From Methylotenera sp. (GTDB lineage Bacteria > Pseudomonadota > Gammaproteobacteria > Burkholderiales > Methylophilaceae), in the NCBI GenBank assembly GCA_030682715.1, contig JAUXNQ010000055.1:62001-126000 (forward strand): 64,000 nt of DNA, written 5' to 3'. Below the pieces are notes generated by a model. That model made no database searches. It was not told where the DNA came from and saw only the letters and a list, made by a program, of their open reading frames with translations. Positions 1,417 to 39,967 of this stretch are shown here, one piece after another; position 1 is the stretch's first letter, and each line of letters begins with the position of its first letter. The translations under genes were made by a program, and so were the position numbers.

Positions 1417-3300
1417 ATGTTTTTTATTGATCTGATTCATAACATCACCTTGCTGGTTGCGCTCACAACTATTTATCAAGTTGTTTTATCACGAAACAAA
1501 AGAAATCCACTGACACAAGTATTACTTTTTGGTGTTTTGTTTGGGCTGGCTGGTGTCGTTGGCATGATAACGCCTGTGCAGTATGGTAATGGTGTGATTT
1601 TTGATGGGCGCTCAATTATTTTGTTTGTTGCAGGGATGTTTGGTGGTCCTTTATCCGCCTTGATTAGCGCATTAATTATCGGCTTTTATAGAGCTTGGTT
1701 AGGTGGTGGTGGCGTACTAGTTGGCATTGCTGTCACTGTTGCGTCGGCTTCAATAGGTGTTGCGTTTTATTTTTATAGAAAAAGCTTTGGTGGCTCATTG
1801 AAGGCGTTCTCGCTTCTAGGGGCTGGGTTATTAGTGCATGTCATCATGTTGAGCTTATTCTTATTTCTACCAAACGGAATCGGCGTCAATGTAATCAAAG
1901 AGTTCGGTCCAACTATTATGTTGTTTTATCCAGTTGCGACGATGTTGGTTTGCTTGCTTTTTCAAGACTACGAAGAGAAAGAAGCTAGTCGAGGTGAGTT
2001 GCATCGATTGGCATACTACGATTCATTAACTGGCTTACCTAATCGTTCATTGCAGATTGAACGCCTGAACCACTCTTTATCGATTTGTAAAAGTACAGGG
2101 TGCAAAGGCGCACTTATTCTGTTAAATTTGGATCGATTTAAAACACTGAACGATGCACGTGGACATGCTGCTGGTGATATGTTGCTATGTATAGTAGCTG
2201 ATAGACTCAAGCCACTTATCGAGGCTGAGGGTGTGTTGGCACGAATGTCAGCAGACGAGTTTGCCGTGTTAATCGATAATAAAGCAAGTGGTACCGTAGA
2301 TATTGATTCTGCTGCGCATCAATTGGCAGATAGGATTCAAATCTCGCTAAAGTATCCAATTCAATTGGGGGAAGATGAAATATCAGCTTCCAGCAGTATT
2401 GGTATTACAACTTTCCCCATCAATGCCGAAGAAAAAGCTGGTGATGTGTTTCGTCGAGCAGACACGGCCATGCATCGTGCGAAGCAAAATGGCGGAAACC
2501 AGAGTATTCTGTTTGAACAGTCGATGGCAAGTGTAGCTGAGCAGCGTTTCAAGATAGAGCGTGAACTGCGTATGGCGATACCTGCAGGGGAGTTGATGCT
2601 ATACCTGCAATCGCAAGTGAATGCAGCTGGCGCACTTGTAGGGGCTGAGGCATTAGTTCGATGGCAACATCCAGAACGGGGCTTAGTGCCGCCTTCTTTG
2701 TTTATTCCCGTGGCTGAAGAAACTGATTTGATTGTTGATGTCGATGTTTGGGTGCTTACTCAAACTTGCCGAATCTTGGCAGGACAAGATGTCTACAGTT
2801 TGCCGCTTAGAGTCTCCGTTAACATTAGCCCAAGACACTTCCGCCAACGTAGTTTTGTTGCCAGCATTAAAAAGATTCTTGCTGATACTGGCGCTGATCC
2901 AACCCACTTAACGCTAGAAGTGACTGAGGGCTTGGTCATTGATAACATTAGTGAGGTTGTTGCCAAAATGACTGAACTTACTTTGTTGGGGATTCACTTC
3001 TCGCTTGATGATTTTGGTACTGGTTATTCTTCACTAAGCCATCTGAAACGACTCCCGATTCATGAGTTGAAGATAGATAAAACTTTTGTTCAGGATGCGC
3101 CAACAGATCCAGATGATGCCGCTCTGGTTGAATCTGTATTGGCAATTGCCAAACACATGAAGCTAAATGTAGTTGCTGAAGGGGTTGAAACTCAAGAGCA
3201 GGCTGATTTCTTGAATGTTAGGGCAGAAGTAATTCACCAAGGCTACTTGTACAGTAAACCTGAGCCCGCAGCTAGTTGGATTAAGAAGCTAGCCAAATAA
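1417..3300 (+). CDS. Membrane c-di-GMP protein: 5TM-5TMR_LYT sensor, degenerate GGDEF, EAL phosphodiesterase
   Basis: Likely an inner-membrane cyclic-di-GMP phosphodiesterase. About 190 N-terminal residues form five or six hydrophobic segments of the 5TM-5TMR_LYT type, beginning at LIHNITLLVALTTIYQVV. A GGDEF-fold domain follows (YYDSLTGLPNR), but its signature is SADEF rather than GGDEF, so diguanylate cyclase activity is doubtful. The EAL domain keeps EALVRW, the NISPRHF block, DDFGTGYSSL and the LKIDKTFV lysine, so phosphodiesterase activity is plausible. I prefer the ATG at 1417, which follows AAGGGAAG and begins just before the first membrane segment; an in-frame ATG lies at 1294. The gene stands alone and converges on the YcaO gene. 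Confidence 0.85.
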   Translation: MFFIDLIHNITLLVALTTIYQVVLSRNKRNPLTQVLLFGVLFGLAGVVGMITPVQYGNGVIFDGRSIILFVAGMFGGPLSALISALIIGFYRAWLGGGGVLVGIAVTVASASIGVAFYFYRKSFGGSLKAFSLLGAGLLVHVIMLSLFLFLPNGIGVNVIKEFGPTIMLFYPVATMLVCLLFQDYEEKEASRGELHRLAYYDSLTGLPNRSLQIERLNHSLSICKSTGCKGALILLNLDRFKTLNDARGHAAGDMLLCIVADRLKPLIEAEGVLARMSADEFAVLIDNKASGTVDIDSAAHQLADRIQISLKYPIQLGEDEISASSSIGITTFPINAEEKAGDVFRRADTAMHRAKQNGGNQSILFEQSMASVAEQRFKIERELRMAIPAGELMLYLQSQVNAAGALVGAEALVRWQHPERGLVPPSLFIPVAEETDLIVDVDVWVLTQTCRILAGQDVYSLPLRVSVNISPRHFRQRSFVASIKKILADTGADPTHLTLEVTEGLVIDNISEVVAKMTELTLLGIHFSLDDFGTGYSSLSHLKRLPIHELKIDKTFVQDAPTDPDDAALVESVLAIAKHMKLNVVAEGVETQEQADFLNVRAEVIHQGYLYSKPEPAASWIKKLAK

Positions 3301-3478
3301 TGAATCTGAGTCAAACAGTAAACCAGAGCCAAGCTATTAACGATAGTGCTGGCTTGTTGATAAAGAAGTTAATTACACAATCGCACTCTTTTAAAAGAGG
3401 GGAAAAACTCAAAACAGCGCCCAATTAGTTGTTTTGATGGGTAACCTGGTTCAGTACAACAAGCCATGACTCGTAATC

Positions 3479-5698
3479 CTAGCTGGTCTTAGCCGCCATA
3501 TTGGCCCGAGCCGTATGTAATTTTTTGTAGCTGTCGATTAAGCGATGGTGTCTGTCGAGTCCCTCCAGTTTTATACTGGTGGGCGTCAAGCCGAAGAAAC
3601 GCGCGCTGCCATCCACTGAACCTAGAACGGCGTCCATCCGAGCATTGCCAAACATCCGACGGAAGTTGACCACATAGTCGTCTAACTCTAGTTCGTCATC
3701 CAGCAGAACTTCCAGCACCACATTCAATGCCTGATAAAACAATCCGCGCTCGACCGTGTTGTCGTTGTACTGTAGGAAGGCACCCACCAGTTCATGTGCC
3801 TCATCAAATTGCTGCAAGGCGAGATTTATCAGCAGTTTCAACTCTAGCACGGTTAGCTGACCCCAGACCGTATTCTCGTCAAATTGGATACCGATTAATG
3901 TGGCGATATCGCCGTAATCATCCAGCTCGTTATTCTCTAAACGCTCAAGCAGTGCTTCTAGGCTGGCATCATCCAGACGATGCAGGTTTAAAATATCAGC
4001 GCGGAACAATAGTGCCTTGTTAGTGTTATCCCAGACCAGATCTTCTATCGGATAAATTTCGGAGTAGCCTGGTACCAAGATGCGGCAAGCAGTCGCACCT
4101 AGCTGGTCATACACCGCCACGTAAGCTTCTTTGCCCATTGCTTCAAGAGTGCCAAACAAGGTCGCAGCTTCCTCGGCATTGGAGTCGCCAGATTTGCTTT
4201 CTTGGTCTTGACCAGAGAAATCCCACTCCACAAACTCGTAATCTGATTTAGTGCTGAAGAAGCGCCACGACACAATGCCGCTGGAATCGATGAAGTGTTC
4301 AACAAAGTTGTTAGGCTCAGTCACAGCTTCACTGGCAAAAGTGGGCTGAGGCAAGTCGTTCAGGCCCTCCAAGCTGCGACCTTGCAGTAATTCAGTCAGA
4401 CTTCGTTCCAGCGCTACTTCTAAACTTGGGTGCGCACCGAACGAGGCAAACACGCCGCCTGTTCGCGGATTCATCAAAGTGACGCACATCACTGGATAGT
4501 TGCCGCCTAGCGATGCATCCTTAACCAGCACTGGAAAGCCTTGCTCTTCCAAGGCTTGAATCCCAGCCAGAACGCTAGGATATTTAGCTAACAGTTCTTG
4601 CGGCACATCTGGCAAGGTGATTTCACCTTCGAGAATTTCGCGTTTGACGGCTCTCTCAAAAATCTCCGATAAGCATTGCACCTGCGCTTCGGCCAACGTA
4701 TTGCCAGCACTCATGCCATTGCTGACGTAAAGGTTTTCGATCAGGTTAGACGGAAAATACACGACCTCGCCATCCGACTGGCGCACAAATGGCAACGAAC
4801 AGATGCCGCGTTCGGCATTGCCAGAGTTGGTATCGACCAGATGCGAACCACGCAACTCGCCATCAGGGTTGTAGATATCTAGGCAGTACTCATCTAGAAT
4901 CTCTTTCGGCAACGTATCTTTACGACCTGGCTTAAACCAGCGCTCATTTGGGTAATGTACAAACGATGCGTTGGCAATGTCTTCACCCCAGAATGACCCA
5001 GCATAGAAGTGGTTGTTACTTAGTCGCTCGATATACTCGCCCAAGGCCGACGCCAACGCACTTTCCTTGGTTGCACCTTTTCCGTTAGTGAAACACATGG
5101 GCGAATGCGCATCACGAATATGCAATGACCACACATTGGGAATGATATTGCGCCAAGAAGCAATTTCTATCTTGATACCTAAGCTCGCCAGCAGCCCTGA
5201 CATATTGGCGATGGTTTGCTCCAAGGGCAGATATTTACCCGTGATATAGGTATTTGCCTCAGAATTCGGATTCATCACCAAGAGCGCTTGCGCATCAGCG
5301 TCCAGATTAGCGACTTCTTCAATCACAAACTCTGGCCCAGTTTGCACCACCTTTTTTACCGTACAGCGGTCGATGGAGCGCAAGATACCTTGGCGGTCCT
5401 TATCGGAGATATCCACTGGCAACTCGACCTGAATCTTAAAAATCTGTTGGTAACGGTTTTCGGGATCCACAATATTATTGTGCGATAGACGAATATTTTC
5501 AGTCGAAATATTGCGCGTGTCGCAGTACAACTTCACAAAGTAGGCTGCGCACAGGGCTGATGAGGCCAAAAAGTAATCGAAGGGGCCAGGGGCAGAGCCA
5601 TCGCCTTTGTAACGAATAGGTTGGTCGGCAATCACCGTGAAGTCATCGAATTTAGCTTCAAGACGTAATTTATCGAGAAAGTTGACCTTAATTTCCAT
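3479..5698 (-). CDS. OsmC-YcaO fusion protein
   Basis: A 739-residue fusion. Residues 1 to about 140 resemble OsmC/Ohr-type proteins (SSALCAAYFVKLYCDTRNI, with a cysteine in the usual helix). Residues from about 150 resemble YcaO, an ATP-binding cyclodehydratase-like fold, including SALGEYIERLSNNHF and SEIFERAVKREILEGEI, the acidic motifs that bind Mg-ATP in the family. A C-terminal helical extension follows. Stand-alone YcaO of E. coli is linked to beta-methylthiolation of ribosomal protein S12; members of peptide-modifying clusters form azolines or thioamides. No precursor peptide or partner is seen nearby, so a housekeeping role is more likely. The substrate is unknown. Confidence 0.85.
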   Translation of the reverse strand: MEIKVNFLDKLRLEAKFDDFTVIADQPIRYKGDGSAPGPFDYFLASSALCAAYFVKLYCDTRNISTENIRLSHNNIVDPENRYQQIFKIQVELPVDISDKDRQGILRSIDRCTVKKVVQTGPEFVIEEVANLDADAQALLVMNPNSEANTYITGKYLPLEQTIANMSGLLASLGIKIEIASWRNIIPNVWSLHIRDAHSPMCFTNGKGATKESALASALGEYIERLSNNHFYAGSFWGEDIANASFVHYPNERWFKPGRKDTLPKEILDEYCLDIYNPDGELRGSHLVDTNSGNAERGICSLPFVRQSDGEVVYFPSNLIENLYVSNGMSAGNTLAEAQVQCLSEIFERAVKREILEGEITLPDVPQELLAKYPSVLAGIQALEEQGFPVLVKDASLGGNYPVMCVTLMNPRTGGVFASFGAHPSLEVALERSLTELLQGRSLEGLNDLPQPTFASEAVTEPNNFVEHFIDSSGIVSWRFFSTKSDYEFVEWDFSGQDQESKSGDSNAEEAATLFGTLEAMGKEAYVAVYDQLGATACRILVPGYSEIYPIEDLVWDNTNKALLFRADILNLHRLDDASLEALLERLENNELDDYGDIATLIGIQFDENTVWGQLTVLELKLLINLALQQFDEAHELVGAFLQYNDNTVERGLFYQALNVVLEVLLDDELELDDYVVNFRRMFGNARMDAVLGSVDGSARFFGLTPTSIKLEGLDRHHRLIDSYKKLHTARANMAAKTS

Positions 5699-6065: not shown

Positions 6066-6893
6066 CTAACGAGTTCCTCTACATTCTGGATAAGCAGAGC
6101 ATCCCCAAAACTCGTTCCCTGCATTAGCACCTTTTCTAGCAGTTCTTTTTACCATAGCCGAGCCACACAATGGGCACTCAAGGCTTGTTGCTACTGGTTG
6201 CTGACATACACTTGGCTTCTTGATATTCGGCTGCACCTGAACCCCTGCAACCATCTCTAACAGTTCTGAGCCATCAATCAACCAGATAGGCTTATCTTCA
6301 GCAAACAATCTAGCTTCAGCAGTGTAATTGCCACTACTAACAAAGATACAGTCGTTAGCTCTTTCTGAAGTCATTACCCCATACAACTCACGAATCAATG
6401 GCACACCTATTGAGAATGTTTTCCACCTTTTGCACTGAACAATAGACTTCTTACCATTTTTGGTAAGCACTAGGTCAATGCCACCATCAGCTCCACCCCC
6501 ACCATTTTCTCTAACTTCAAATCCTTTTCGTCTAAAAGCTTCGCCAACTAACAATTCAAAGTCTTGCCATGACATATCACGGATAGATTCAATACCAGAT
6601 TGCTTATCTAATAGCTTAATTCTATGTTTAGTTCTGAATGATGAAACACATGCACCAATAATAAAAATTACAGGAAATACATACTGTAAAAATTTAGAAA
6701 AAGAAATAAAGATTAGTTTAGGAAGAGAGTTTGTTGCTGAATGTAAATTAGTAGCAACTGGTAAAGCTTGAATGGCGAAATAATGAAAAAAGAAATAACT
6801 AATGATTGCTACAGCCAAACTAATCTTCCAATTTATAGAAGATGCAATATCCAGTAAATTTTCAATGGGTGAAGTCTTTTTTCTGCGAGCCAT
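6066..6893 (-). CDS. Membrane-anchored Mrr-type restriction endonuclease with zinc ribbon
   Basis: A 275-residue protein with two N-terminal membrane segments (about residues 23-43 and 58-85), an Mrr_cat nuclease domain and a C-terminal topoisomerase-type zinc ribbon (CPLCGS...CSAYPEC). The PD-(D/E)XK active site is visible as GGID (D140) and QCKRW (Q153, K155). Mrr-family enzymes cut modified or foreign DNA. The membrane anchor suggests action at the cell envelope, which is inference. The gene stands alone, outside the TTGGTGG-bounded element but next to repeats that look like an older element's end, so it is probably acquired. Its exact target cannot be read from sequence. Confidence 0.8.
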   Translation of the reverse strand: MARRKKTSPIENLLDIASSINWKISLAVAIISYFFFHYFAIQALPVATNLHSATNSLPKLIFISFSKFLQYVFPVIFIIGACVSSFRTKHRIKLLDKQSGIESIRDMSWQDFELLVGEAFRRKGFEVRENGGGGADGGIDLVLTKNGKKSIVQCKRWKTFSIGVPLIRELYGVMTSERANDCIFVSSGNYTAEARLFAEDKPIWLIDGSELLEMVAGVQVQPNIKKPSVCQQPVATSLECPLCGSAMVKRTARKGANAGNEFWGCSAYPECRGTR

Positions 6894-8959: not shown

Positions 8960-9470
8960 TTAATGAATTCGCTACGCTCATTCTTTCTTTTACAGCCCTC
9001 AGGCACAACGAGCTAAAGCTCGTGTGTCGGCAACAGTCGCTAAAGCTCCTGGCCGATCGTCCCCAGCGACCTGTCTCCAGCAAAGCTGGAGATCGGGAAA
9101 TTCAAAAACGGTCAGCATAAAAATACAAAAGGCGAAACAAGCAAGGTAGTAGGTAGTTTGGAAATAACGTAGAAGCAGTCAATTGCTGAACCGGAAGCCG
9201 CAGCTAAGTGAGCGTTAGCGAATCTGAACGGGTGAGGATGCAGGCGTAGCGAACAATTGACGGCTTTGAAGTGTTGTAAGCTTTGCAAAAGGGTGGTGGT
9301 TTGTTTTTAACCACCGCCCGTTGCCATACGGCGAGTAGGTTTTTTTATTTTGTGTAAAGGTTTGAGCATGCAAAATTTCATTAACCCTACCTATCTTTGA
9401 AATTCCTGACTTTCGTTGTCCTAATTGAACAACAACAAAAACCACACTTTAATCGGTGTGGTTTTTTTTA
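8960..9470 (+). ncRNA. Candidate structured RNA, plus strand (about 0.5 kb)
   Basis: There is no credible gene, but many hairpins. At 9004-9026 a CAC/GTG plus ACGAGC/GCTCGT stem has a TAAA loop. At 9074-9092 an 8-bp stem (TCTCCAGC/GCTGGAGA) has an AAA loop, framed by CCGAT/ATCGG (9053-9057/9092-9096). GTCAATTG (9178-9185) pairs with CAATTGAC (9254-9261). At 9291-9319 an 11-bp stem has one G-U pair. The segment ends at an intrinsic terminator at 9436-9470. The 5' end is a guess and no promoter is certain. The first two hairpins could belong to another element, such as an origin of transfer. I recognise no known RNA family. Confidence 0.45.
9436..9470 (+). terminator. Strong intrinsic terminator (also active-looking on the minus strand)
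   Basis: AAACCACAC (9439-9447) pairs perfectly with GTGTGGTTT (9456-9464) around an 8-base loop, followed by a run of T. The preceding A run would give a T run on the other strand, so it could work in both directions. There is no protein gene upstream on the plus strand for about 750 bp, so it implies an RNA product. Confidence 0.8.
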
Positions 9471-9522: not shown

Positions 9523-9552
9523 AAAAACCACCACCCAATGAAGGGTGGTGGG
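9523..9552 (-). terminator. Intrinsic terminator of the large minus-strand RNA
   Basis: CCACCACCC (9528-9536) pairs perfectly with GGGTGGTGG (9543-9551) around a 6-base loop. The five A at 9523-9527 give a U tract on the minus strand. It lies about 50 bp from the plus-strand terminator at 9436-9470, so two non-coding units converge here. Confidence 0.8.
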
Positions 9553-10675
9553 GGTTAGCAGGATTATTAATCCAACTTGCCAACACATGGCCATGTTTGC
9601 CGATTCTACGGCGCAGTATGTGATCTGCAGCGTTGCGGTTTAACGATTACCGCATTTCGTTTTAAAACACGTACCGGTAATTAAATAAACATCGGATCAC
9701 AAGTCCGTATCCCTATTTAATCCCTTCATCGCTCTCGTTGTTCTAATCAAACAACGCCAGCGCTTGGAATAAATACCAGGGGGACCAACCCCCAGCAATG
9801 AATCGGCGGCCAAGCCGATTCATATATTTAAACAAGCTTCCTGCTTGTTTAGCCACTTTTTTACTACTAAACAACAACACGGGGTGTCACCCCCGTGCGC
9901 ATCGTACGCTTCTTGCTTTCCTACCCAGCTCGTCGCTGGTTGATGTAATGACCGTTTTAGTCAGCCACTCCATCGCTCGTACTTGCAAAATCTCCCACGC
10001 TTCCAGAATTACAGAGCCGCCAAGCTCTCTGGTTCAGCGCTTCCCACTTTAGTTGAATGCCCACCTCAAGAGAGAGGTTAGGGCGCTTCCGCTACTACGC
10101 AAACTTAGCAGTTGCCTCATTTCATTTTCCTAGGTCTAAGACCCTACCCCTACTATTACGGGTTTCCACGGCAAAAGATTCCAAAAACACTCGTGTACTA
10201 AAAATAAAACATCACCGGCTACTAAAATACCACTGCATCATTTACTCCGACATGCTCCCTCTAGGGGTTACAGTTAAACGCTTAAGCTATCCATAGACCC
10301 TGAACTTCTTCAGGTGCCAATCTCTCCAGGTTTCCCCTCAAGACCCTGCCGTATTTCTACGGCCTCATAAGCCCACGTTGTCGGCCAAGTCATGCGCTTT
10401 TCAGCTCATCCCTTGGGTTAATACAAATGTCTGTATTAACTTTCACGGTCAACAGGTACACATCCCATTACTGGGTTGCCCGTTTCAGTGTCGCCCAATG
10501 TTTAAATCATATTTTGATTGAGTCGAAGGGAATATTGCAATTCCCAGCGCTCGTCGTAGCGTGGCGAGCTCTATTAGAAGCACCACGCTTCAGCGTACTA
10601 ATTTTAGTAATTGGCGTTACTAAAATTTGGATCATCCGATCCCTGCGCGTTGTTTTTTAAGGGTGGCTAACCCCC
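9523..10675 (-). ncRNA. Candidate very large structured RNA, minus strand (about 1.13 kb)
   Basis: A region with no credible protein but dense with stem-loops. GCTAACCCCC (10666-10675) is the exact complement of GGGGGTTAGC (9550-9559), so the transcript's ends would pair over 10 bp. Internal perfect stems include 9736-9756 (7 bp), 9798-9823 (10 bp), 9830-9850 (8 bp), 9878-9897 (7 bp), 10299-10314 (6 bp), 10338-10353 (6 bp), 10417-10440 (9 bp), 10528-10545 (6 bp) and 10601-10626 (10 bp). Read on the minus strand, the loops at 10344-10347 and 10468-10471 are GAAA and GUAA, GNRA-type tetraloops; on the plus strand they are not. An intrinsic terminator at 9523-9552 faces the same way. Size and style recall OLE, GOLLD or ROOL RNAs, but I cannot assign a family. 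No group II domain V is seen. Confidence 0.65.
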
Positions 10676-10745
10676 GATATTTTGAAGGTTTGGCTTACCC
10701 AAAAAGTGACATATACAGTTTGATTAAGTTTAGGTAATATGTCAA

Positions 10746-10803
10746 TTAAGTTATTTAAAAACAATAACTTAATAACACTTTGTCAACACTTTTTATTTGT
10801 TGA
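10746..10803. promoter_or_regulatory. Palindromes between the large RNA and a divergent gene
   Basis: TTAAGTTATT (10746-10755) is the inverse of AATAACTTAA (10763-10772), and TCAACA (10783-10788) of TGTTGA (10798-10803). TTGACA boxes on the minus strand lie at 10740-10745 and 10781-10786, but neither has a good -10 at normal spacing. The region presumably holds the start of the minus-strand RNA and of the divergent gene at 10894, with operators for one or both. Confidence 0.4.
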
Positions 10804-10893
10804 TTTTTTTGTTATTAGATTAATTTATGCGGAATCTTAATATGTTAAATATCAACTTATGGAAAATCCTTTTTATGTTTGGTAACAATTAAT

Positions 10894-11571
10894 ATGAATA
10901 ATAAAAATCATGCTTTATTTATTTTTGATAAAAAAACACCGTGGATGCAGAGAATATCTGACTACATTAGGTTGGGTCATATCTACTTTATTTGTGGGCA
11001 AATCGAACCTGCAAAAGTGAAGTTCTTAGCTGAAAAATTTGCTAAAAATTATGAGACCGGACTGTCCAAAATGGAGCAATCAAGAAAGCGTAAAAATGGT
11101 TTTGCATCCTTTAAATTTTTAGCGTGGAATGAGGAAAATGCAAATATCGTCCATTGGATTTTATGCAGAACTGAAGGTGCGCTTCCTGAAATTGGTACAC
11201 GAGAAAAGTGGCAAGATGCAACCAGCAAAACAAGATTGCACATTACAGGTGGGTATGAGCTAGTCAGACTAACCAAACCGGAAGAACCAAAGCCAACGTG
11301 GACTTGGCGATACTCCAAAACTCACTATGAAGACTTGCGTGAGAGTGTGCTGCGGGCACTTAGGAACAAGCGTGATGATTTGTTAAAACAATTAATTCAT
11401 GAGATTTGGCGAACCCCTGGATTTGCTGGCGCACGTGCGCAAGTGAAGGCAATCGGTAAATTAATTAAACAGGAATGGAAGCGTGTCCGCAGTGCTGATA
11501 AGTTTCCGGAAATACCTATTAGGATTGGGTATGTACGTCGAATGAAAGACGTAGGACACGTTCTTAAATGA
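10894..11571 (+). CDS. Hypothetical protein, 225 residues
   Basis: Function unknown. The protein is basic and lacks membrane segments or a signal peptide. It begins MNNKNHALFIFDKKTPWMQR, has a region rich in Trp and Lys in the middle (PTWTWRYSKTHYEDLRESVL), and a basic C-terminal half (RAQVKAIGKLIKQEWKRVR) that could bind nucleic acid. I chose the ATG at 10894; a TTG five codons upstream is possible. It is divergent from the large structured RNA and shares its promoter region, which makes a link with that RNA worth testing, but nothing in the sequence proves one. Confidence 0.6.
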   Translation: MNNKNHALFIFDKKTPWMQRISDYIRLGHIYFICGQIEPAKVKFLAEKFAKNYETGLSKMEQSRKRKNGFASFKFLAWNEENANIVHWILCRTEGALPEIGTREKWQDATSKTRLHITGGYELVRLTKPEEPKPTWTWRYSKTHYEDLRESVLRALRNKRDDLLKQLIHEIWRTPGFAGARAQVKAIGKLIKQEWKRVRSADKFPEIPIRIGYVRRMKDVGHVLK

Positions 11572-11775
11572 ATTAATACAGTGTAGTTAGATTAGGTGAG
11601 TTTACGGACAGAAACATACAATTCGGCAATCTGTGTCGACAGGTAGCTTCCTGGCCTATACCTGCCAGTGTTGTTGGTTTGGTTTCTCGGCAGGTGTCAT
11701 TTAGGTTGCTGTCGCTGACGAGTTTGAGGATGACTTCTCTCGGTCGCCAAGTCAGAGAAGGTACCCTGCAAATAA

Positions 11776-11820
11776 CATGGCCATGATTGATATCTTGGCC
11801 GCGATATGTATAATGGCCAT
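11776..11820 (+). promoter_or_regulatory. Promoter with flanking ATGGCCAT operators for the nuclease/NTase pair
   Basis: TTGATA (11787-11792), a 16-bp spacer and a perfect TATAAT (11809-11814). CATGGCCATG at 11776-11785 and ATGGCCAT at 11813-11820 bracket it, the second overlapping the -10. The downstream protein has a winged-helix segment and is the likely autorepressor. A good ribosome binding site (AAGGA) precedes the ATG at 11844. Confidence 0.7.
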
Positions 11821-11843
11821 GGTATATATAAAGGACACCAAAA

Positions 11844-13007
11844 ATGCTCCCATCTTATTCTTCCAAAAGCAGAAGCGAGAACGCGAAGGCTTTCGTTGCT
11901 GATTTATTTGAGGCCAGCGGCTGGGATGTAGATCGATTCCCGGATTACGGAAGAAAACGCCCAGACCTCATTGTGCGAAAGGGCTTACAGTGCTTTGTTG
12001 TGGAGATCAAGGCGCTCACAGAAGGACGTGCCGATCGAGTTATTCCATTGCTGTCGCAGGCAATCCTACAAGCACAAGCACAAGCACAAGCAAATGCCGT
12101 CGATGCAGGCAATGCAAAGCCCCTAGCAGTTATTTCTGTTGAGAACGTATCCAAATCCCTATTAAAGCAAGTCTGTTCGTTTGTTGAGCAATACGCACCG
12201 AATGTAGCTGTCGGTCTAGTGTCTAAGTGGGGGGGCAGATACTTCAGTGGAGGAAGCCTTAATGAGCTGAATGCCGAGCCAGAAGATCTTCGTTGGCTTG
12301 AAAGTGCCCCATCGAGTCAACCTGTCAATCTTTTCTCGGATCTAAATCAGTGGCTGCTGAAAGTGCTGCTGGCCCCTGAAATACCAGACCATTTGTTACA
12401 AGCACCAAGACAAAAGTATCAAAGCGGTTTAGAACTCGCCGAGGCCGCCAAGGTATCGCCCATGAGTGCATCTCGGTTCTTGAAACAGCTTCGCAACGAA
12501 GGTTATTTGGACGAATCCTCGCGATATATTGCTATCGTACGCCTTGCAGAGCTGTTTCGCCGTTGGCGATCGGCTTCGATGCGCCCATCACCAGAAATTC
12601 CAATGCGATTTCTCATTAGAGGACCTGCACAACAGCAAATTCGCAGCCTTGTAGCGAGTCATGAAGGGGTGGCTTGTTTAGGGCTATTTGCAGCTGCCGA
12701 TGCCTTACAACTCGGACACGTCAGCGGCGTTCCACCATATATATACGTATCCAAGCTCCCTCGGCCTGGAGACAGGAAATGGAAGACACTGGTAACTGCT
12801 TCTCCTTCCGAGATGCCAGACCTCATCGTCCGACAAGCACTTGCACCGGAATCGACCTTCCGAGGCGCCATACATCAAGGTGGCTTGATAGTCTCCGACG
12901 TCATCCAAGTTTGGCTGGATGTCGCCAATCACCCATCGCGTGGTGAAGAGCAGGCCGACCTGATCTATGAAAAAGCCCTTCGCCCGATCTTAAACAAAGG
13001 AAACTAA
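11844..13007 (+). CDS. PD-(D/E)XK nuclease-like / winged-helix protein, AbiEi-like partner
   Basis: A 387-residue protein with two visible parts. Residues 8-60 resemble a PD-(D/E)XK nuclease core: P40-D41 and E54-I-K56 (RKRPDLIV, VVEIKAL). Around residues 190-235 is a winged-helix DNA-binding segment (ELAEAAKVSPMSASRFLKQL). The C-terminal half resembles AbiEi-type antitoxins. Its stop codon is immediately followed by the ATG of a nucleotidyltransferase gene, the arrangement of type IV (AbiE-like) toxin-antitoxin pairs. A short (QA) repeat occurs near residues 75-85. Base composition is clearly more GC-rich than the surrounding element, a sign of separate transfer. Whether the nuclease fold is active is unknown. 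Confidence 0.7.
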   Translation: MLPSYSSKSRSENAKAFVADLFEASGWDVDRFPDYGRKRPDLIVRKGLQCFVVEIKALTEGRADRVIPLLSQAILQAQAQAQANAVDAGNAKPLAVISVENVSKSLLKQVCSFVEQYAPNVAVGLVSKWGGRYFSGGSLNELNAEPEDLRWLESAPSSQPVNLFSDLNQWLLKVLLAPEIPDHLLQAPRQKYQSGLELAEAAKVSPMSASRFLKQLRNEGYLDESSRYIAIVRLAELFRRWRSASMRPSPEIPMRFLIRGPAQQQIRSLVASHEGVACLGLFAAADALQLGHVSGVPPYIYVSKLPRPGDRKWKTLVTASPSEMPDLIVRQALAPESTFRGAIHQGGLIVSDVIQVWLDVANHPSRGEEQADLIYEKALRPILNKGN

Positions 13008-13832
13008 ATGAACGACCTAGACGCACTAGCTAAGCTAGTTCATGCACTCTCCCCATGGAGAGAGCATCTCGTCTTTATCGGTGGATGGGCTCACCGAGTC
13101 CACAGACTCGATCTGAGGGCAAACAAGCTGGAATACCAACCAGTATTTACTCGCGACACGGACTTGGCATTTGACAGAAGTGCGCCGATTGTGGGTGATA
13201 TAAAAGCAGCCCTCATTCAACATGGCTTTAAGGAGCAGCTAACTGGAGAGCACATGCCACCGGTCGCGCACTACACTTTAGGAGACGAGAACGGAGGTTT
13301 CTACGCTGAATTCCTGACACCACTGATCGGTAGCGGAGTTAAGAGGAGTGGGGCACAAGATGCGACGATGTTGATGGCTGGCATTTCAGCCCAAAAGATC
13401 CGCTATCTGGATATCCTCCTGGTTGATCCATGGTTAATCACACTGGATCCTAAAAGTGGTGTGCCATTAGCATCGTCAATGGACGTTCTTGTGGCTAACC
13501 CGCTGTGCTTCATGATCCAGAAATTTCTAATCCAAGAATATCGCCCTGCAGCAAAACAAGCTCAAGATGTGCTATATATCTTCGACACCATAGAACTTTT
13601 TGGAGCGTTGCTGGATGACTTCAGTGAAAAATGGAAGACAATCATTAGCCCGACTCTAGGGGACAAGTTGAGCAGAAAAGTGCTAACCTTAAGCAAGGCA
13701 ACCTTCTCAAACGTCAATGACGTGATTCGAAATGCAGCGCTCATCCCGCAGAATCGTAATCTCACGCCAGAACAGATACAACTGACTTGCCAAATCGCAT
13801 TTGAGCAGATACTGAGTACATCTGATAATTGA
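13008..13832 (+). CDS. Nucleotidyltransferase, AbiEii-like toxin
   Basis: A 274-residue protein with the nucleotidyltransferase signature: GGW at residues 25-27, a histidine soon after, then TRDTDLAF with D50 and D52 as the metal-binding pair. This is the DUF1814/AbiEii style, in which toxins transfer nucleotides to cellular RNA or protein and stop growth. It begins one base after the upstream stop codon, with AAAGGA as ribosome binding site, so the two are co-expressed. It shares the GC-richer composition of its partner. Role inferred: toxin of a type IV-like toxin-antitoxin or abortive-infection pair. Confidence 0.75.
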   Translation: MNDLDALAKLVHALSPWREHLVFIGGWAHRVHRLDLRANKLEYQPVFTRDTDLAFDRSAPIVGDIKAALIQHGFKEQLTGEHMPPVAHYTLGDENGGFYAEFLTPLIGSGVKRSGAQDATMLMAGISAQKIRYLDILLVDPWLITLDPKSGVPLASSMDVLVANPLCFMIQKFLIQEYRPAAKQAQDVLYIFDTIELFGALLDDFSEKWKTIISPTLGDKLSRKVLTLSKATFSNVNDVIRNAALIPQNRNLTPEQIQLTCQIAFEQILSTSDN

Positions 13833-17830: not shown

Positions 17831-19000
17831 TCAAGCTAAGGTTTCCTGCTCAACTGTGAACTTAGCATCCCTAATTGCTTCTACAAGAAAGCTCCAGCCT
17901 GCAGCTTCAGCGAAATGAACCATTTTATTCACTGTATTGGCGCTTGCTGGGTCTCTGTGCTCCATGGGTACGTTATCTGGGTGCATTTGCCAAGGAATGA
18001 TTGTATGGCCAGCCTTACGCGCCTCCTGTGCTAATACAGAAGCAATCCTGAAGCCACCTTCGTCAACATCACCCCAATGATATACGGGGACATCTTGAGG
18101 TAGGCCTTGCAATAACCTCACGTACATCTCACGCCAAGGTGGATTGGGCATACCGGCGGTGTAAATCAGTAAAACATTCTCGTCACAGCGACGGCGTGCC
18201 TCACTGTGAAATGTTGTCTGGTTCTCAATCGTCATTATTGAAAGAGGTAGGCTTCCAAGCCGTTTGATAGCTGCAGCTGGAAACCCAGAGTAGGGCGCAT
18301 CAATGTAGCCGGTAACTCTTTCTCGTTCTATGATGACATTACCAGCCATTCTGACAGGGTGCTCTTCTCTGAACAGCCCTATAGCTTCCCAAACCTCTGA
18401 AGACGGCCTATTGGAATTAACGTCTCCGGACAAGATGACATCTATTGGCGCAGCCAATTTCTTGATGCGTTTGGTATCTTTGAACAGTTTTCCACTGGCC
18501 TCATTGATAGGTAATGAGATTACGCCTTGAGCAAGATTCTCTTTAGCAAAGTCAATCACGCGAATCGCATCTACCCAGTCTTTTACATCTGCTGCAGTAT
18601 AAGTTCTCACTGTGCGGAGCTCCGCCCACTTTTGCAGCACATCAATAAGCACCGGAAAACGATCAGTAAACACCTCTAAGAGCGATTTAGCATGGGACAA
18701 AACATCTGTCGATAACTCTTTCCCTAGAAACTTTGCCAGTAGTCGATTATCTTTCAGCTCAATACGATTGATAAACCCTTCATCCTCAATGCGAGTGCCT
18801 ATGGTGTAGGTAATCGCACCTTCAGCTCTACAAGCGTCTATGACCGTCTCAAATGCTTCTTTGGCTTGTAATGAGCGCCCATTATGATATTTAACTAAAT
18901 TAGACTTGGTTATTACTGACGCTTTGGTGCGACGGCCAGCTTCAGTTTTTTCCGAATCGGATAACAGTTTATTGAGCAGAGAATACGCGAGGTCTTCCAT
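17831..19000 (-). CDS. jetD: Wadjet nuclease subunit JetD (DUF3322/DUF2220, TOPRIM)
   Basis: A 389-residue nuclease subunit of the type I Wadjet system, which cleaves small circular plasmids after the SMC motor senses their size. The C-terminal TOPRIM-like domain shows the glutamate in MTIENQTTF and the metal-binding GDVDEGG (D311, D313). The N-terminal half matches the DUF3322 type. Its ATG overlaps the last base of the jetC stop codon (TAATG), so translation is coupled. It is the last gene of the WYL-jetABCD operon; fic follows behind its own operators. Confidence 0.9.
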   Translation of the reverse strand: MEDLAYSLLNKLLSDSEKTEAGRRTKASVITKSNLVKYHNGRSLQAKEAFETVIDACRAEGAITYTIGTRIEDEGFINRIELKDNRLLAKFLGKELSTDVLSHAKSLLEVFTDRFPVLIDVLQKWAELRTVRTYTAADVKDWVDAIRVIDFAKENLAQGVISLPINEASGKLFKDTKRIKKLAAPIDVILSGDVNSNRPSSEVWEAIGLFREEHPVRMAGNVIIERERVTGYIDAPYSGFPAAAIKRLGSLPLSIMTIENQTTFHSEARRRCDENVLLIYTAGMPNPPWREMYVRLLQGLPQDVPVYHWGDVDEGGFRIASVLAQEARKAGHTIIPWQMHPDNVPMEHRDPASANTVNKMVHFAEAAGWSFLVEAIRDAKFTVEQETLA

Positions 19001-22000
19001 TAAGCAACAGCCTCAATTCGCTCTGCCCTCATAGTCTCAAGCTCATTTTCAATAAGCTCACCATTAAACTCTGACAGGTCGCTTCTAAACATTTCTCGCA
19101 CTGTTTCAGAGACATCATGCGCTTGTATTAGCATGGAGCTATTTTCAACATCACGTAGGATGTCGTAGTAACGATGCAAGAACGCAGTTAAAGTGCCTAA
19201 GTTATCACCTGGGCTGGCCATGAATATTTGGAGTCCAAGCTGTTCTAAATATCGCATAGTTGCCACGATATTAGCTGTATCCATTTTATTGAACGCTTCA
19301 TCAAGCAATATCAAGCGAATTCCATCCGAGCTGCCATTATCTAGTCTATAAGCTGAAGCCAAAGCTGCACCGGCTATTACATATAGCGGAGCGCGATGTT
19401 CACCACCGGAGCCAGTGCCAAGACGCTTGCTGAGGCTTCCAACGGTGGTTAATGTCTTGTTGATAGAATCTTCACGCAGAATCTCGATATCAAACTCAAA
19501 GAACTCCCTGTAGTCGTCGAGTGGGTTCTGCATTCCGGCTGTGCTAGGTGCTATTTTGTCATCGAGAAGCTGACGGAATTCTTCCGGCATTTCGCCCGCG
19601 CCACCTAATAAGTCATCAGTAGGGCCATAGGCTGCAATATCTTTCACAAATTTGAGTAAGCTTTTGAGTTGTGGCCTTATCGTACGAGTAAAACGATAGC
19701 GCTCACCATTCGAGAATACTGGGCATGTGCTCAACACCTGGTTAAGCCGGTTCATAGACTTTTCTAAATGGTCTATGTTGTTACTGAGTGCAACCGCCAC
19801 ATCAGCACGGAATGTATCTTGCGATGCTTTAAATGCTTCCTTCATGCGGGCATCAAAATCACTTAATTCTGTATCTCTTAAGCGTTTTAGTAGCTCACTA
19901 ATCCATTCACGGTCTTTACGCCAATCATCAGCGCCCGCGACACCTTGTTCTCTATATTTCTCCCTGAAGGTTCCAATCTCTTTATAACCGCGTGAAATTG
20001 CATTATTCATCTCGGTTTTAGACGAATCTTTCTGCCTTCCGCAATATTCTTTCATCAATCCATATTGGTCATCAAATTTTTCTAAAAGAATATCCCACTG
20101 CTTAGAAGCATAATCCCGATCATAGGCTTCGTTGCTTTCAATATCCGTGAATGCTTTTTGTGCTGCCTCCCATTTATTTCTAGCTTCAGTGACATGACTT
20201 TCGCATTGCGTTAGCTTTTGTTCAGCGCGTCCAATTTTCAACTTTAAGTCGCTAACTTGTGGCATCAATGTGTTTACCTGATTATCTAGCTTTGCAACCA
20301 GGGCATTGAGTCTTACATATTCAGCATCCGCTGAATCATTTAAACGCGATGTAAGGCTTGCGACAGCGCTTCTAGCCGTATGCATCTCATCACATGCATC
20401 TAACATGTATTTCATCACAGACTCTTCACTAGAAATGCGACGTAGGCTCTCAATTAACGCTTTGATGGATTCAATTTTTGTTGTGAAGGTTTTGATAGTT
20501 GCTTTGAGTGAGGAAATTTCCTTTGTTAAAGCCTCTTTTTGGTTGTTATCGCCACCGCCGATTTTGAGATTACCCAATAAAATTGGCTTAATACGGTCAT
20601 ATTCGCCTGATTGAATAATCATGCCATCCTGAGTCAATGTACGCTTGCCGGCCAATGCCTCTGCATCAGTAGTAGCGCGTAGCATGTCACCAAAACGTCT
20701 CTGTAAGTAAGCCACAGCAGCAGGATTGTCACCTACAATCAATTCTGCGACTGAGCCAGATACCGGCGCAATAGTATTTTGCTTACTCGCTGCGACAATT
20801 TTTGCGCCATAAATTGCCCGTGGCCCAGTCAGTCCACGATAAACGCTAAATGCTTTAGCTTCGTCGTCCTTAGAGACCAACAAGGCTTCAATGTTGCGGC
20901 CTAAATATGCTTCAATAACAGGTTGCCATGAAGTGTCTGTGATATTAACAAGATCACATACCGGCGTTGCATGAATGCCGTTATCGCTTAACTCTGCAAG
21001 TAACCGGTTTGTATCATTACTTAGCATCGAGCGACCAGCTTTAACCCTTTGCAAAGCATTTTCACTCAGCTTAAGCTGCTCTTCAACTTGAGTTTGATTG
21101 CTAACAATACCTCTATTGAGATCAAATAAATCAGTAATGGCGCGTGTTGACTCGTACACTGAAGGCTTGATCAATGTCGATAACTGTTCTTTACTTAAAT
21201 CTTGATAGTTTGGCATTGCACCATCAATAGATTTAACCACGGACAGAATCGCAGACGTGCTCTCAAGCAGCTTGGAATTAGCTGCAGCATCCAAAGTATT
21301 ACGAATCAAGCTTAATCCATTGCGTATTTCACCCGATTTCTTCATCTCCAAATCTCTGGACTTGCTGATTTCGCTACTAATCACCCCATTTTCTTGATGG
21401 GCCGCATGATTCATAATTAAAATTTGGTTGGATTTGACCTGTTCTTGCGCATTTTTTAAGACAGCATTTTCTCGAATATGCTGTTCGTTTAATTGATGTA
21501 AGCTCTCTTCCGCATCTGCATGCTCATCGGACGCAACTTCCAGTAATGCACTTGCTTCACTGCTAGAAGCCCAGCTGTATAGTCCATTCCAAGTAACCTC
21601 GCGTTTTGAAGCAAATTCAGCCTTATTAAACTCCACTTCAACTCGTTCACCGTCCTCAATTTTAGTCTTCACTTCAGCCACTTTTTTGGCCAAGCTACGG
21701 AATGATTCAGTGACTTCCTTGAATTTATTGATATTGGTGGGTCGAGCTTCCAGTACATCCTGACGTACGATTTTATCCACTGATTTATCAAAACGCATCC
21801 TAAGTGCAAATCTAAATGCACTCTTGAATGCCTCCATAGACGGTGCGCCACCACTGCCACGAAGGGCGAGTAGAGAGGCGGCAACAAATCGCTCTGAATC
21901 CGGATAAAGTGGATCTTCGCCAAACGCCTTTGAGCGTTCAATCAGATTATGGCGGAATGTTTCCCAAGTTCGAGGACTCTCTTGGTTGTTCACAACTTGC

Positions 22001-22416
22001 AAATGGTCGTCCATTGATAACTCAACGCCTGGCAGAATATAGCGGCCTCTTACTTCATGGCCTTCAGTATCCATAGAAGCATAAAGACATACCCCCATAG
22101 AAGTTGCCTCTTTGGTAATCGAATCGCGCCATACCAAAGTGATATAGGTGGTTGCATTGTCCCGTGCACGCTTAACCTCATCGTGCATGCCTAAACAATA
22201 GGAACGAATGGTACGGGTCGTTGTGCGCTCATCAGCCTGCGCATTTAGACTCACTAAACGACTATTGGCACCGAACATAGCGATTTGAACGGCATCGACC
22301 AATGAGCTCTTACCGCTAGCATTGGGGCCAAATATCCCCGTAATCTCCTGCAGACGAATTTCCTGTTTTTCAAACAAGAAAAATTGAACAAGTTTTATGC
22401 TTTCAAGGAATTTCAT
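19000..22416 (-). CDS. jetC: Wadjet SMC-like ATPase JetC
   Basis: A 1138-residue SMC/MukB-like motor. Walker A GPNASGKSS lies at residues 30-38 and Walker B (LILLDEAFNKMD) near 1036-1046. Between them is a long coiled coil with a hinge-like centre around residues 480-600 (NRLLAELSDNGIHATPVCDL, then APVSGSVAELIVG). The signature-like segment GSGGEHRAPLYVIAGAAL precedes Walker B. It would extrude DNA loops with JetA and JetB and deliver circular DNA to JetD. It overlaps jetB by four bases and jetD by one. The length is as expected for the family and there is no damage. Confidence 0.93.
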   Translation of the reverse strand: MKFLESIKLVQFFLFEKQEIRLQEITGIFGPNASGKSSLVDAVQIAMFGANSRLVSLNAQADERTTTRTIRSYCLGMHDEVKRARDNATTYITLVWRDSITKEATSMGVCLYASMDTEGHEVRGRYILPGVELSMDDHLQVVNNQESPRTWETFRHNLIERSKAFGEDPLYPDSERFVAASLLALRGSGGAPSMEAFKSAFRFALRMRFDKSVDKIVRQDVLEARPTNINKFKEVTESFRSLAKKVAEVKTKIEDGERVEVEFNKAEFASKREVTWNGLYSWASSSEASALLEVASDEHADAEESLHQLNEQHIRENAVLKNAQEQVKSNQILIMNHAAHQENGVISSEISKSRDLEMKKSGEIRNGLSLIRNTLDAAANSKLLESTSAILSVVKSIDGAMPNYQDLSKEQLSTLIKPSVYESTRAITDLFDLNRGIVSNQTQVEEQLKLSENALQRVKAGRSMLSNDTNRLLAELSDNGIHATPVCDLVNITDTSWQPVIEAYLGRNIEALLVSKDDEAKAFSVYRGLTGPRAIYGAKIVAASKQNTIAPVSGSVAELIVGDNPAAVAYLQRRFGDMLRATTDAEALAGKRTLTQDGMIIQSGEYDRIKPILLGNLKIGGGDNNQKEALTKEISSLKATIKTFTTKIESIKALIESLRRISSEESVMKYMLDACDEMHTARSAVASLTSRLNDSADAEYVRLNALVAKLDNQVNTLMPQVSDLKLKIGRAEQKLTQCESHVTEARNKWEAAQKAFTDIESNEAYDRDYASKQWDILLEKFDDQYGLMKEYCGRQKDSSKTEMNNAISRGYKEIGTFREKYREQGVAGADDWRKDREWISELLKRLRDTELSDFDARMKEAFKASQDTFRADVAVALSNNIDHLEKSMNRLNQVLSTCPVFSNGERYRFTRTIRPQLKSLLKFVKDIAAYGPTDDLLGGAGEMPEEFRQLLDDKIAPSTAGMQNPLDDYREFFEFDIEILREDSINKTLTTVGSLSKRLGTGSGGEHRAPLYVIAGAALASAYRLDNGSSDGIRLILLDEAFNKMDTANIVATMRYLEQLGLQIFMASPGDNLGTLTAFLHRYYDILRDVENSSMLIQAHDVSETVREMFRSDLSEFNGELIENELETMRAERIEAVA

Positions 22417-23069
22417 GCTTCCACCTCGGTAATTTCTTCTTCGTTATTATTGATAGCATCTACAACCTTCGTTTGAGACCAGTGCCCTAAGCGTTGCAGG
22501 GTGGTTTCACCAAGCACCTCCACAATAGCTGGTCTTATCAAGATGAATGACTGTGAATCGGCTTCGCCGTCAAAGTCTTCTAGGCTTTGCTCGTCAGCCA
22601 TCCTGACTAAGCCACAGCGCCTAAGCTGTCTTAGCAGAGCGTTAAACTCGACCTTGGAGGGCAATTCACGACCTGTTGATAGCTTATATTTTTCGTCCAG
22701 CTCGATCAGTTCGCAGAACACTTCTCCATTGTCGTTTTGCTGACCTATGCGTGCAGATTCGTCGTAAAGAGTCCGGAGTACAAGTGCTATTAACGTAAGC
22801 GATACTGAGGCTGTACCACTCTTTTGATGCTTAGGTTTCGCAAATACATAACGCAGCAAAGGATTAACGTCCAAGACGATACCAAGCGGCTCAAGGACAT
22901 GCTCAAATTCCTTGGTGTAGCGTTCTACTAAATAATAAGCAATCCGACTATGTTTATCCGAATGGTAAAGCACTTGCTCAGTGACCAATCTATAGGCCGC
23001 TGCCTCGAACTCTTCTGCAGTATGTTGTCCGTCAGTGCGTGATGCTGCGGTTTCCCAGTAGTTACTCAT
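22413..23069 (-). CDS. jetB: Wadjet subunit JetB (DUF4194, kite-like)
   Basis: A 218-residue acidic protein matching JetB, the KITE/MukE-like winged-helix subunit that joins the SMC head to the kleisin-like JetA. Recognisable blocks are YRLVTEQVLYHSDKHSRIAY near the start and NALLRQLRRCGLVR in the winged-helix part. It lies between jetA (9-bp gap) and jetC (ATGA overlap). Confidence 0.88.
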   Translation of the reverse strand: MSNYWETAASRTDGQHTAEEFEAAAYRLVTEQVLYHSDKHSRIAYYLVERYTKEFEHVLEPLGIVLDVNPLLRYVFAKPKHQKSGTASVSLTLIALVLRTLYDESARIGQQNDNGEVFCELIELDEKYKLSTGRELPSKVEFNALLRQLRRCGLVRMADEQSLEDFDGEADSQSFILIRPAIVEVLGETTLQRLGHWSQTKVVDAINNNEEEITEVEA

Positions 23070-23078
23070 GAAATACTC

Positions 23079-24542
23079 CTATTTTTTAACCGCATTACGC
23101 GCTATTACTTTGAATGGTATGGACGAGATATGGGGGTGGGCTGTTTCTGCGCTACCATTAATCTCAACTCTAAAACCTCTCGTCATACCTATTGCATCCA
23201 TTTGCAATTTCTTACTTTTAGCGCTCATCTGGAGGCTTAAAGTTGAAAGTGACTGATACATACGAACGTCTGAAATGCTGTTGATCTCTAATTCTTCGTT
23301 ATTGAGGGAATCCTTACCTACCAGCTGATTCTTGGCATAGGTTGAGAGGCCTAAGAAGGTGACTGTGCGATTAGCCCTTGCCCGAAGCATGATTCTTGAC
23401 TTCGCTATTTGTTCGTCCGATACAACCACTTTTCTTAAAGCTGAAGGAGCTGCACGCTCGATAGCTTTTCTTGGCTCTGCGAGTCTTTCTTCACTAAGCA
23501 TCTCACTTGGCGCAAATGGGTCTGCCATTAACGGCACGCCTTGTTCTAAAACAGATGCAATAGCATGTTTAACCATTACGTCTGTTGGCCTTAATGACCG
23601 CAAACGATAATCCAAGAATGCTAATGCCCGCTTATTAGCACGCCTGATTTCATCGTCCAGCCGGTCTAGGTATTCATCAATTCGCTGCAGCTCAGATAAG
23701 CGATTTAGATCCCGCTCGAATAGCCTTTCTGCTTTCTGAATATCGCCTGGTGTACGTTTGCTTTCATACCATGCAATTAATCGCTGGCGATGCGCCTGTG
23801 ATTCACGTATGTCTTCAATTCTAGTGAGAATCTGAGCGCGTTTTGAAAGAGGATGTTCTGTTGTTCTCAGCTCACGATAATCACCAATAAATACACGCTC
23901 GATATAGCCACTAAAGAATTGTTGTACATATTGTGCGGTAGAGATGTTGTGATGCAGCGACTCCATCAAGTCACGAATGTTTGTGCCCGTATTTCTGACA
24001 TGCTCCAATAGATTTCGCGCTTGTTCTGCAGCTTCAGCAAGGGAGTCTCCGGCGGCATTACCATCAATGACCATCTGCAAGTTTGCATCAATTGAACGAA
24101 TTTTCCCCGATACAAACACTGGACCAGTTTCAGCAAATGATATGAGCATCGTTAGGAATTGGCTAACAGATGGCTGCATTGTTACTTTCTTCTCAAAACG
24201 GGGCTGTTCTATGCGGAACCAGCCACATTCATAGAAGCGATTGAAGATTGCTGCAGCGCGAACTTCAACTTGAGTATTGCCTACGTCAACAGCGTCCTCG
24301 CTGTCCCAGATTTCTTCAAACTCCAAAGCTTCAATAATGTCTTGAACTATCAATTTGGATGGGTAGCCTCTACTTGGGGGTAGCGGTGCATCTGGGCCAA
24401 ATCGCTTTTCATGAAGACGGCATAAAAGTGACCAATAGCGATGTCTATTTGATGAGGCGAGGGGAGCGAACAGCCGGTCTGGTAGTCGTTCAAACAACAA
24501 TGATGACGCAGTAGCGTGGTTATTTATTTCTTGAATAGCCAT
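23079..24542 (-). CDS. jetA: Wadjet subunit JetA (DUF3375, kleisin/MukF-like)
   Basis: A 487-residue protein of the DUF3375 family, the MukF/kleisin-like subunit of type I Wadjet. It has an N-terminal helical domain beginning FERLPDRLFAPLASSNRHRY, a long helical centre (RIEDIRESQAHRQRLIAWYE) and a C-terminal part that would contact the JetC head. It overlaps the upstream WYL regulator gene by 19 bp, so the regulator and jetABCD form one operon. Confidence 0.9.
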   Translation of the reverse strand: MAIQEINNHATASSLLFERLPDRLFAPLASSNRHRYWSLLCRLHEKRFGPDAPLPPSRGYPSKLIVQDIIEALEFEEIWDSEDAVDVGNTQVEVRAAAIFNRFYECGWFRIEQPRFEKKVTMQPSVSQFLTMLISFAETGPVFVSGKIRSIDANLQMVIDGNAAGDSLAEAAEQARNLLEHVRNTGTNIRDLMESLHHNISTAQYVQQFFSGYIERVFIGDYRELRTTEHPLSKRAQILTRIEDIRESQAHRQRLIAWYESKRTPGDIQKAERLFERDLNRLSELQRIDEYLDRLDDEIRRANKRALAFLDYRLRSLRPTDVMVKHAIASVLEQGVPLMADPFAPSEMLSEERLAEPRKAIERAAPSALRKVVVSDEQIAKSRIMLRARANRTVTFLGLSTYAKNQLVGKDSLNNEELEINSISDVRMYQSLSTLSLQMSAKSKKLQMDAIGMTRGFRVEINGSAETAHPHISSIPFKVIARNAVKK

Positions 24543-39889: not shown

Positions 39890-39896
39890 TTGGTGG
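39890..39896. other. Right attachment core at the tRNA-Met 3' end
   Basis: TTGGTGG, the reverse of the CCACCAA end of tRNA-Met, matches 7160-7166. Insertion here keeps the tRNA intact. Confidence 0.55.
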
Positions 39897-39967
39897 TGAA
39901 AGTGGGACTTGAACCCACGACCCCAGGATTATGAATCCTGTGCTCTAACCAGCTGAGCTACATCACC
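39891..39967 (-). tRNA. tRNA-Met (anticodon CAT)
   Basis: A 77-nt cloverleaf: acceptor GGTGATG, D-arm GCTCAGCTGGTTAGAGC, anticodon stem CAGGA/TCCTG with loop TTCATAA, T-arm GTGGGTTCAAGTCCCAC, and an encoded CCA. CAT could in principle be a lysidine-modified tRNA-Ile2; the overall sequence fits elongator Met. It is the insertion target of the neighbouring element. Confidence 0.93.

Follow-up and report, generated by a model that had tools for sequence, protein, structure and literature searches.

In a 64,000-nucleotide stretch of a Methylotenera sp. genome (GenBank assembly GCA_030682715.1, contig JAUXNQ010000055.1, positions 62,001 to 126,000; hereafter, the window), the minus strand at about 9523-10675 encodes an RNA that we identify, with a probability of roughly 95%, as a circularly permuted (CP) group II ribozyme. 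This class was described by Roth et al. 2021 (PMC8637638; this and the other papers given by PMC number are cited from excerpts), and the RNA is a member of that known class, not of a new one. The partner gene acpG is divergent from the RNA, and the two (together, the module) are carried by an element that lies beside a tRNA and also encodes a tyrosine integrase, ParA, a weakly TrfA-like protein and a Wadjet system. The features of the module are:

9523-10675, minus strand: the whole CP group II RNA, supported by conservation over 62 aligned loci, by the model R1 (below) and by the terminator; the predicted 5' end lies near 10675 and the predicted 3' end is the terminator
10661-10673, minus strand: 5' hairpin, seen in the sequence; a candidate P1, named after the description in PMC8637638
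10602-10625, minus strand: P2 hairpin, with the loop CGCCAA at 10611-10616
10558-10589, minus strand: domain 5 (D5), with the AGC triad at 10587-10589 and the UN bulge at 10566-10567
10517-10552, minus strand: domain 6 (D6), with the bulged branchpoint adenosine at 10523 and the 3' splice-site end AAU at 10517-10519
10497-10516, minus strand: linker between the reversed splice sites, the predicted 20-nucleotide (nt) circular product
10479-10496, minus strand: 5' splice-site motif GGGCG (10492-10496) and the start of domain 1 (D1)
10280-10292, minus strand: GGAUAGCUUAAGC, strongly conserved, probably an element of D1
10173-10187, minus strand: UUUUUGGAAUCUUUU, a conserved block
10013-10028, minus strand: hairpin of domain 2 (D2), with the loop UUGGCG at 10018-10023
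9523-9549, minus strand: intrinsic terminator, seen in the sequence
10894-11571, plus strand: acpG, the divergent partner gene (225 amino acids, no known family)

A sequence-only reading of the window had described a large, ornate, non-coding minus-strand RNA that ends in a terminator and lies on a plasmid-like element, and this description was correct. When we checked the sequence, the ends of the RNA were exact complements over 10 bp, as claimed (GGGGGTTAGC at 9550-9559 and GCTAACCCCC at 10666-10675, which overlaps the 5' hairpin), and the terminator at 9523-9549 had minus-strand polarity. The GUAA loop was at 10468-10471 as described; the GAAA loop exists too, but at 10354-10357, which is ten bases from where it had been placed. 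There was indeed no credible gene inside: the only three open reading frames (ORFs) of at least 60 amino acids have 77, 79, and 84, and all are on the plus strand. The predicted fold of 9700-10690 beats 20 of 20 shuffles on each strand (z of -5.9 for the minus strand and -9.2 for the plus strand), so folding energy cannot pick the strand. We assign the RNA to the minus strand because two wobble pairs are retained in 60 of 61 homologous sequences.

From 5' to 3', the RNA contains D5, D6, the reversed splice sites, D1, and D2, so that D5 and D6 precede D1 and the later domains. The AGC triad, the five pairs, and the UN bulge of D5 are all present. The branchpoint adenosine of D6 (10523) is invariant in 61 of 61 sequences and is unpaired in the structure that we counted. 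(We considered the motif UUCGAYYC as a T-loop and rejected it: it is the branchpoint strand of D6.) The splice-site motifs NU and GGGCG are found in reverse order and flank the short linker of 20 nt. Furthermore, the loops of the D2 hairpin and of P2 are complementary at 6 of 6 bases, which forms the P2-D2 pseudoknot. Thus the sequence-only reading was mistaken in seeing no group I or group II intron core: a group II core is present, with its domains permuted. That it missed the core is understandable because Rfam shows no group II match. At the gathering level, Rfam 15 (which it had suggested searching, with the OLE, GOLLD, ROOL, and intron families included) found two tRNAs and nothing else in the whole window, and in 11 relatives even a cutoff of E 0.5 brought up no Rfam group II family. 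An identity from Rfam at permissive E-values was dropped, as nothing was above chance.

Using blastn against 100 relatives, we found one matching genome besides the window's own. Other blastn matches, in regions without annotated genes, were on plasmids of Sulfuriferula nivalis, Polaromonas naphthalenivorans, and Paraphotobacterium marinum. A two-part pattern that was derived from the blastn matches hit 57 stretches in a search of 84,980 species genomes, and nothing in viral contigs. (A phage or viral home was rejected, as we searched both phages and viral contigs and found no match.) Judging by the titles of the records, most of the pattern matches are from Alpha-, Beta-, or Gammaproteobacteria; there were also two contigs of one Oscillospiraceae metagenome-assembled genome and one contig labelled Mycobacterium, which may be contamination. 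Together with the window and a further nine loci from plasmids or genomes, the 57 stretches make a set of 67 loci, of which 66 are distinct (L006 and L050 are the same contig). At one of these loci (L010), a hypothetical protein is annotated antisense over the RNA, at 1006-1830; this annotation is probably spurious.

Covariation in the stems, which the sequence-only reading had proposed as a test, was supported, and this comparison is what settles that the structured RNA is real. For the 5' core, we compared 61 distinct sequences: both sides changed in 21 of 36 pairs, including 9 of the 12 pairs in the D5 helix (helix 1 of our alignment A3). We counted 416 double-change cells in the 5' core; shuffled controls gave 121.8, and slid ones no more than 67. 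Pairing was 98.4% in D5 and 99.4% in D6. The helix drawn at the linker had zero double changes and is weak. The P2 and D2 loops also covary: among the 49 of 67 loci that could be scored, 39 have GCCA with UGGC, 10 have ACCA with UGGU, and none are mixed. Our first rule for scoring these loops was blind to covariation because it required GCCA; the final rule accepts GCCA or ACCA, and the reading of one locus (L053) differs between the two rules.

We built a model of D5-D6, R1, from A3 alone. R1 matches the window with E = 7.4e-39 (the window is one of its training rows), and it matches 27 of 399 genomes of the order, with two matches in the window's own genome. The second copy in that genome is on another contig, of about 15 kb (L102), with the RNA at 10333-10999 on the minus strand and a divergent acpG at 11223-11912 on the plus strand; by reading, this contig also has an integrase-like ORF. 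The RNA of the Thermus plasmid pTT8, which was in the training set of neither R1 nor our AcpG profile, is recovered by R1 with a rough E of 4.3e-7 and is missed by a plain DNA profile. The window's RNA is also homologous to the RNA of P. naphthalenivorans plasmid pPNAP05 (86% identity over 85 nt and 75% over 106 nt), which is active in vitro and is expressed (PMC8637638). And our rule for the splice sites predicts a circle of 32 nt for P. naphthalenivorans, which is the published size (PMC8637638). The sequence-only reading had suggested instead a new class of ornate RNA, akin to OLE, GOLLD, and ROOL; the lack of an Rfam match, the large size, and the home on a mobile element would fit that, but the recovery of the pTT8 RNA and the published status of the pPNAP05 RNA refute it, and we give it almost no credence.

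The window's RNA shares with the described ribozymes (PMC8637638) the order of the domains, the D5 and D6 motifs, the reversed splice sites, the P2-D2 pseudoknot, the divergent AcpG, and a home on plasmids or integrated elements. It is longer, at about 1.15 kb instead of the class average of about 900 nt, but we saw no essential difference, and the 3' third of the RNA is not conserved. With canonical group II introns it shares D5, D6, the branchpoint, and the splice-site motifs, but it has another order of domains, internal splice sites, and no long internal ORF. Members of the class from five species react in vitro to give a circle and a branched RNA (PMC8637638). Because its motifs are intact, we infer that the window's copy would react in this way. 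The bulged adenosine of D6 (10523) would attack the 5' splice site before GGGCG (between 10497 and 10496), and the freed end would join at the 3' splice site (between 10517 and 10516). The 20-nt linker would be released as a circle, and the two halves of the ribozyme would be left joined by a 2'-5' branch. Against such a reaction in vivo, cells of P. naphthalenivorans showed no processed RNA (PMC8637638).

AcpG-like ORFs are present at 54 of the 67 loci, and 50 of them are divergent from the RNA and at most 2.6 kb upstream of it. (On pPNAP05, acpG spans the start of the record.) Of 20 R1 loci taken from the 399 genomes of the order (the window and several already known loci are among the 20), 18 have AcpG within about 1.5 kb. 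As published, AcpG is frequent near CP group II RNAs but not obligatory (PMC8637638). Our AcpG profile matches the ORF beside the pTT8 RNA (E = 3.6e-16), which by its place and length, rather than by its locus tag, is probably TTHC007 of PMC8637638. The AlphaFold model of AcpG is confident, with a predicted local distance difference test (pLDDT) score of 91.3. A Foldseek search with this fold gave no significant match (the best E was 0.51 in PDB and 0.028 in BFVD), and comparisons to Pfam, PHROGs, NCBIfam, PADLOC, and PDB sequences gave nothing convincing. On two Acinetobacter plasmids (L075 8605-9771 and L076 7150-8163), the AcpG-like protein has diverged and contains an internal insertion; its gene is divergent to a CP group II RNA.

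In E. coli, the RNA is found in 21 of 5426 genomes, on plasmids only, and at least six plasmid records of about 3 kb carry it. We examined two of these plasmids, and they encode RepL and a 150-amino-acid protein but not AcpG. One E. coli strain has the RNA on both a 34-kb and a 3-kb plasmid. In Novacetimonas, the two are split between sister plasmids: we found only acpG on pKHC110_2 and only the RNA on pKHC110_1. The 4.1-kb plasmid pMtBL of Pseudoalteromonas TAC125 (L009), from which expression vectors are derived, has the RNA at 3103-3785 and acpG at 110-817. Both lie outside the origin that is used in vectors, 1918-2759 (PMC10033558).

Few classes of large natural ribozymes are known, and the excerpts of PMC8637638 leave the role of this one open. 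With the window, the class gains an intact member whose home is an integrated element. What is new here is the coupling-protein and VirB11 neighbours of the module, and the relaxase-like slot that AcpG and the RNA occupy in some clusters. A coupling-protein or VirB11-type gene is present at 13 of the 67 loci (L014, L016, L020, L029, L030, L038, L048, L052, L053, L061, L065, L067, and L071). In L029, L048, L052, and L061, the order is VirB11, AcpG, RNA, coupling protein; L038 has the same order with a fragment of the coupling protein. Three related plasmids (L078-L080) have VirB11, then a protein of 237-242 amino acids with a motif of the type RRPD...EVEL, a gap, and a divergent coupling protein. 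Thus, this PD-(D/E)xK-like protein and the gap occupy the place that AcpG and the RNA hold elsewhere. The record for L080 is typed MOBC, and MOBC relaxases are relatives of PD-(D/E)XK proteins (PMC12857230). The likeness is of position only, between VirB11 and a divergent coupling protein: AcpG is dissimilar in sequence, and the RNA is present where the MOBC-type plasmids have a gap. In E. coli, the cluster at L014 is nearest by sequence to the MOBC-type clusters (60% for VirB11 and 47% for the coupling protein). In a tree of ten coupling proteins, the one from E. coli groups with the MOBC-type ones, and the sister pairing is weakly supported (80/86). Among 38 proteins of the E. coli plasmid that we scanned, there was no relaxase among the families listed (25 of 34).

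We tentatively propose, as a reading that is less likely than not to be right, that the RNA and AcpG are a mobilisation (transfer) module, because the module is not needed for replication where this was tested, rides on tiny plasmids and on elements with integrases, and fills a relaxase-like slot in some conjugation clusters. Both plasmids of 3-4 kb and integrase-bearing elements carry the module. In our proposal, the branched RNA with AcpG would act like a relaxase with its origin of transfer (oriT). Through reverse splicing, the ribozyme would cut a single strand of the plasmid or integrative element that carries it, and the cut strand would be handed to the type IV coupling protein of a conjugation system for export. 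The RNA-only plasmids of 3 kb, which we take as support, could be satellites that rely on a module supplied in trans. Among the papers listed for CP group II RNAs and AcpG we found no earlier proposal of mobilisation, and the text of PMC8637638 names a relaxase in a reference only. If our proposal is true, it would be the first biological role for the class; conjugation, whose start is assigned to proteins in the review PMC12857230, would be started by an RNA; and plasmids that are now typed as immobile might be mobile. The gene order makes this testable, by asking if the ribozyme and AcpG act in place of a relaxase in DNA transfer. We know of no ribozyme link for the mobilisation RNA of SGI1. 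That RNA is likewise required for mobilising an integrative element, but it is called a small RNA (PMC9299015).

Several observations weigh against our proposal. No coupling-protein or VirB11 gene is present in the surrounding DNA that we examined (mostly 8-kb stretches) at 54 of the 67 loci. The order at L014 is different: the RNA comes first, followed in turn by AcpG, the coupling protein, and VirB11. The S. nivalis plasmid (L008) carries AcpG, the RNA, and a MOBC-like protein (match at 24302-25138) together. We found two genomes via the coupling protein alone: the first has a MOBC-like gene, and the second has neither. When the MOBC name was tested directly, with a profile against CloDF13, there was no match. 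AcpG has no sequence similarity to the MOBC-like proteins, and its Pfam matches are few, single, and weak, with no relaxase among them. The label "non-mobilizable" (26 of 26, 34 of 35, and 27 of 28 records, versus 139 of 1322 records that have a related coupling protein) had seemed to favour our proposal, but we give it little weight because the E. coli records are near-identical, and because L078 and L079, which have a MOBC-like gene, and CloDF13 are labelled likewise.

We also considered that the module might be a selfish passenger, with no benefit for transfer, that is kept by a hidden mobility of its own. This would explain why some genomes have two copies and why the RNA exists without acpG. 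However, the authors of PMC8637638, in the excerpts, find no nearby reverse transcriptase (we did not search for one) and no clear route of propagation, and we consider this unlikely. It is also doubtful that the branched RNA acts in trans against foreign RNA or DNA, for defence or competition, which PMC8637638 raises as possible. The element in the window does have Wadjet and an N6/N4-type methylase, but the PADLOC matches of AcpG are confined to single members or pairs of them, with E of 0.0085 or weaker, and by eye we recognised no defence family in the listed neighbour clusters that are common to at least 4 loci (the clusters were not scanned as a set). We are similarly sceptical that AcpG alone is the transfer protein and that the RNA regulates or tethers it: pKHC110_2 and pKHC110_1, where each is found without the other, would fit this, but the RNA-only 3-kb plasmids of E. 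coli do not. A role in replication or copy-number control, which we considered first, would fit the small plasmids with few other genes and the weakly TrfA-like gene 0.85 kb away in the window, but it seems improbable, and we dropped it because of the coordinates of the pMtBL origin; furthermore, pTT8 replicates with nearly all of its RNA deleted, although a chromosomal copy could complement (PMC8637638), and plasmids with the module are annotated with differing types of Rep.

Returning to the window's element, the tyrosine integrase (38487-39671) adjoins a tRNA (39894-39967, with a CAT anticodon by reading), which is likely one end of the element; we found no att repeat of at least 13 bases. 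The Wadjet-type anti-plasmid system is at 17831-24542 on the minus strand, with Pfam matches to JetA and JetD and, between them, an SbcC-like protein and DUF4194. Directly after acpG, at 11844-13832, is a pair that we take to resemble AbiE-like pairs: one protein has a helix-turn-helix match, and the other is a nucleotidyltransferase (NTP_transf_8). The gene at 6066-6893 looks, by reading, like a restriction endonuclease of the Mrr type. We also noticed that 51 bp at 9189-9239 match, with 92% identity, a segment that lies upstream of ardC in the conjugative plasmid LC623906 and that also occurs in LC623930; this may be an oriT-like element or a promoter element.
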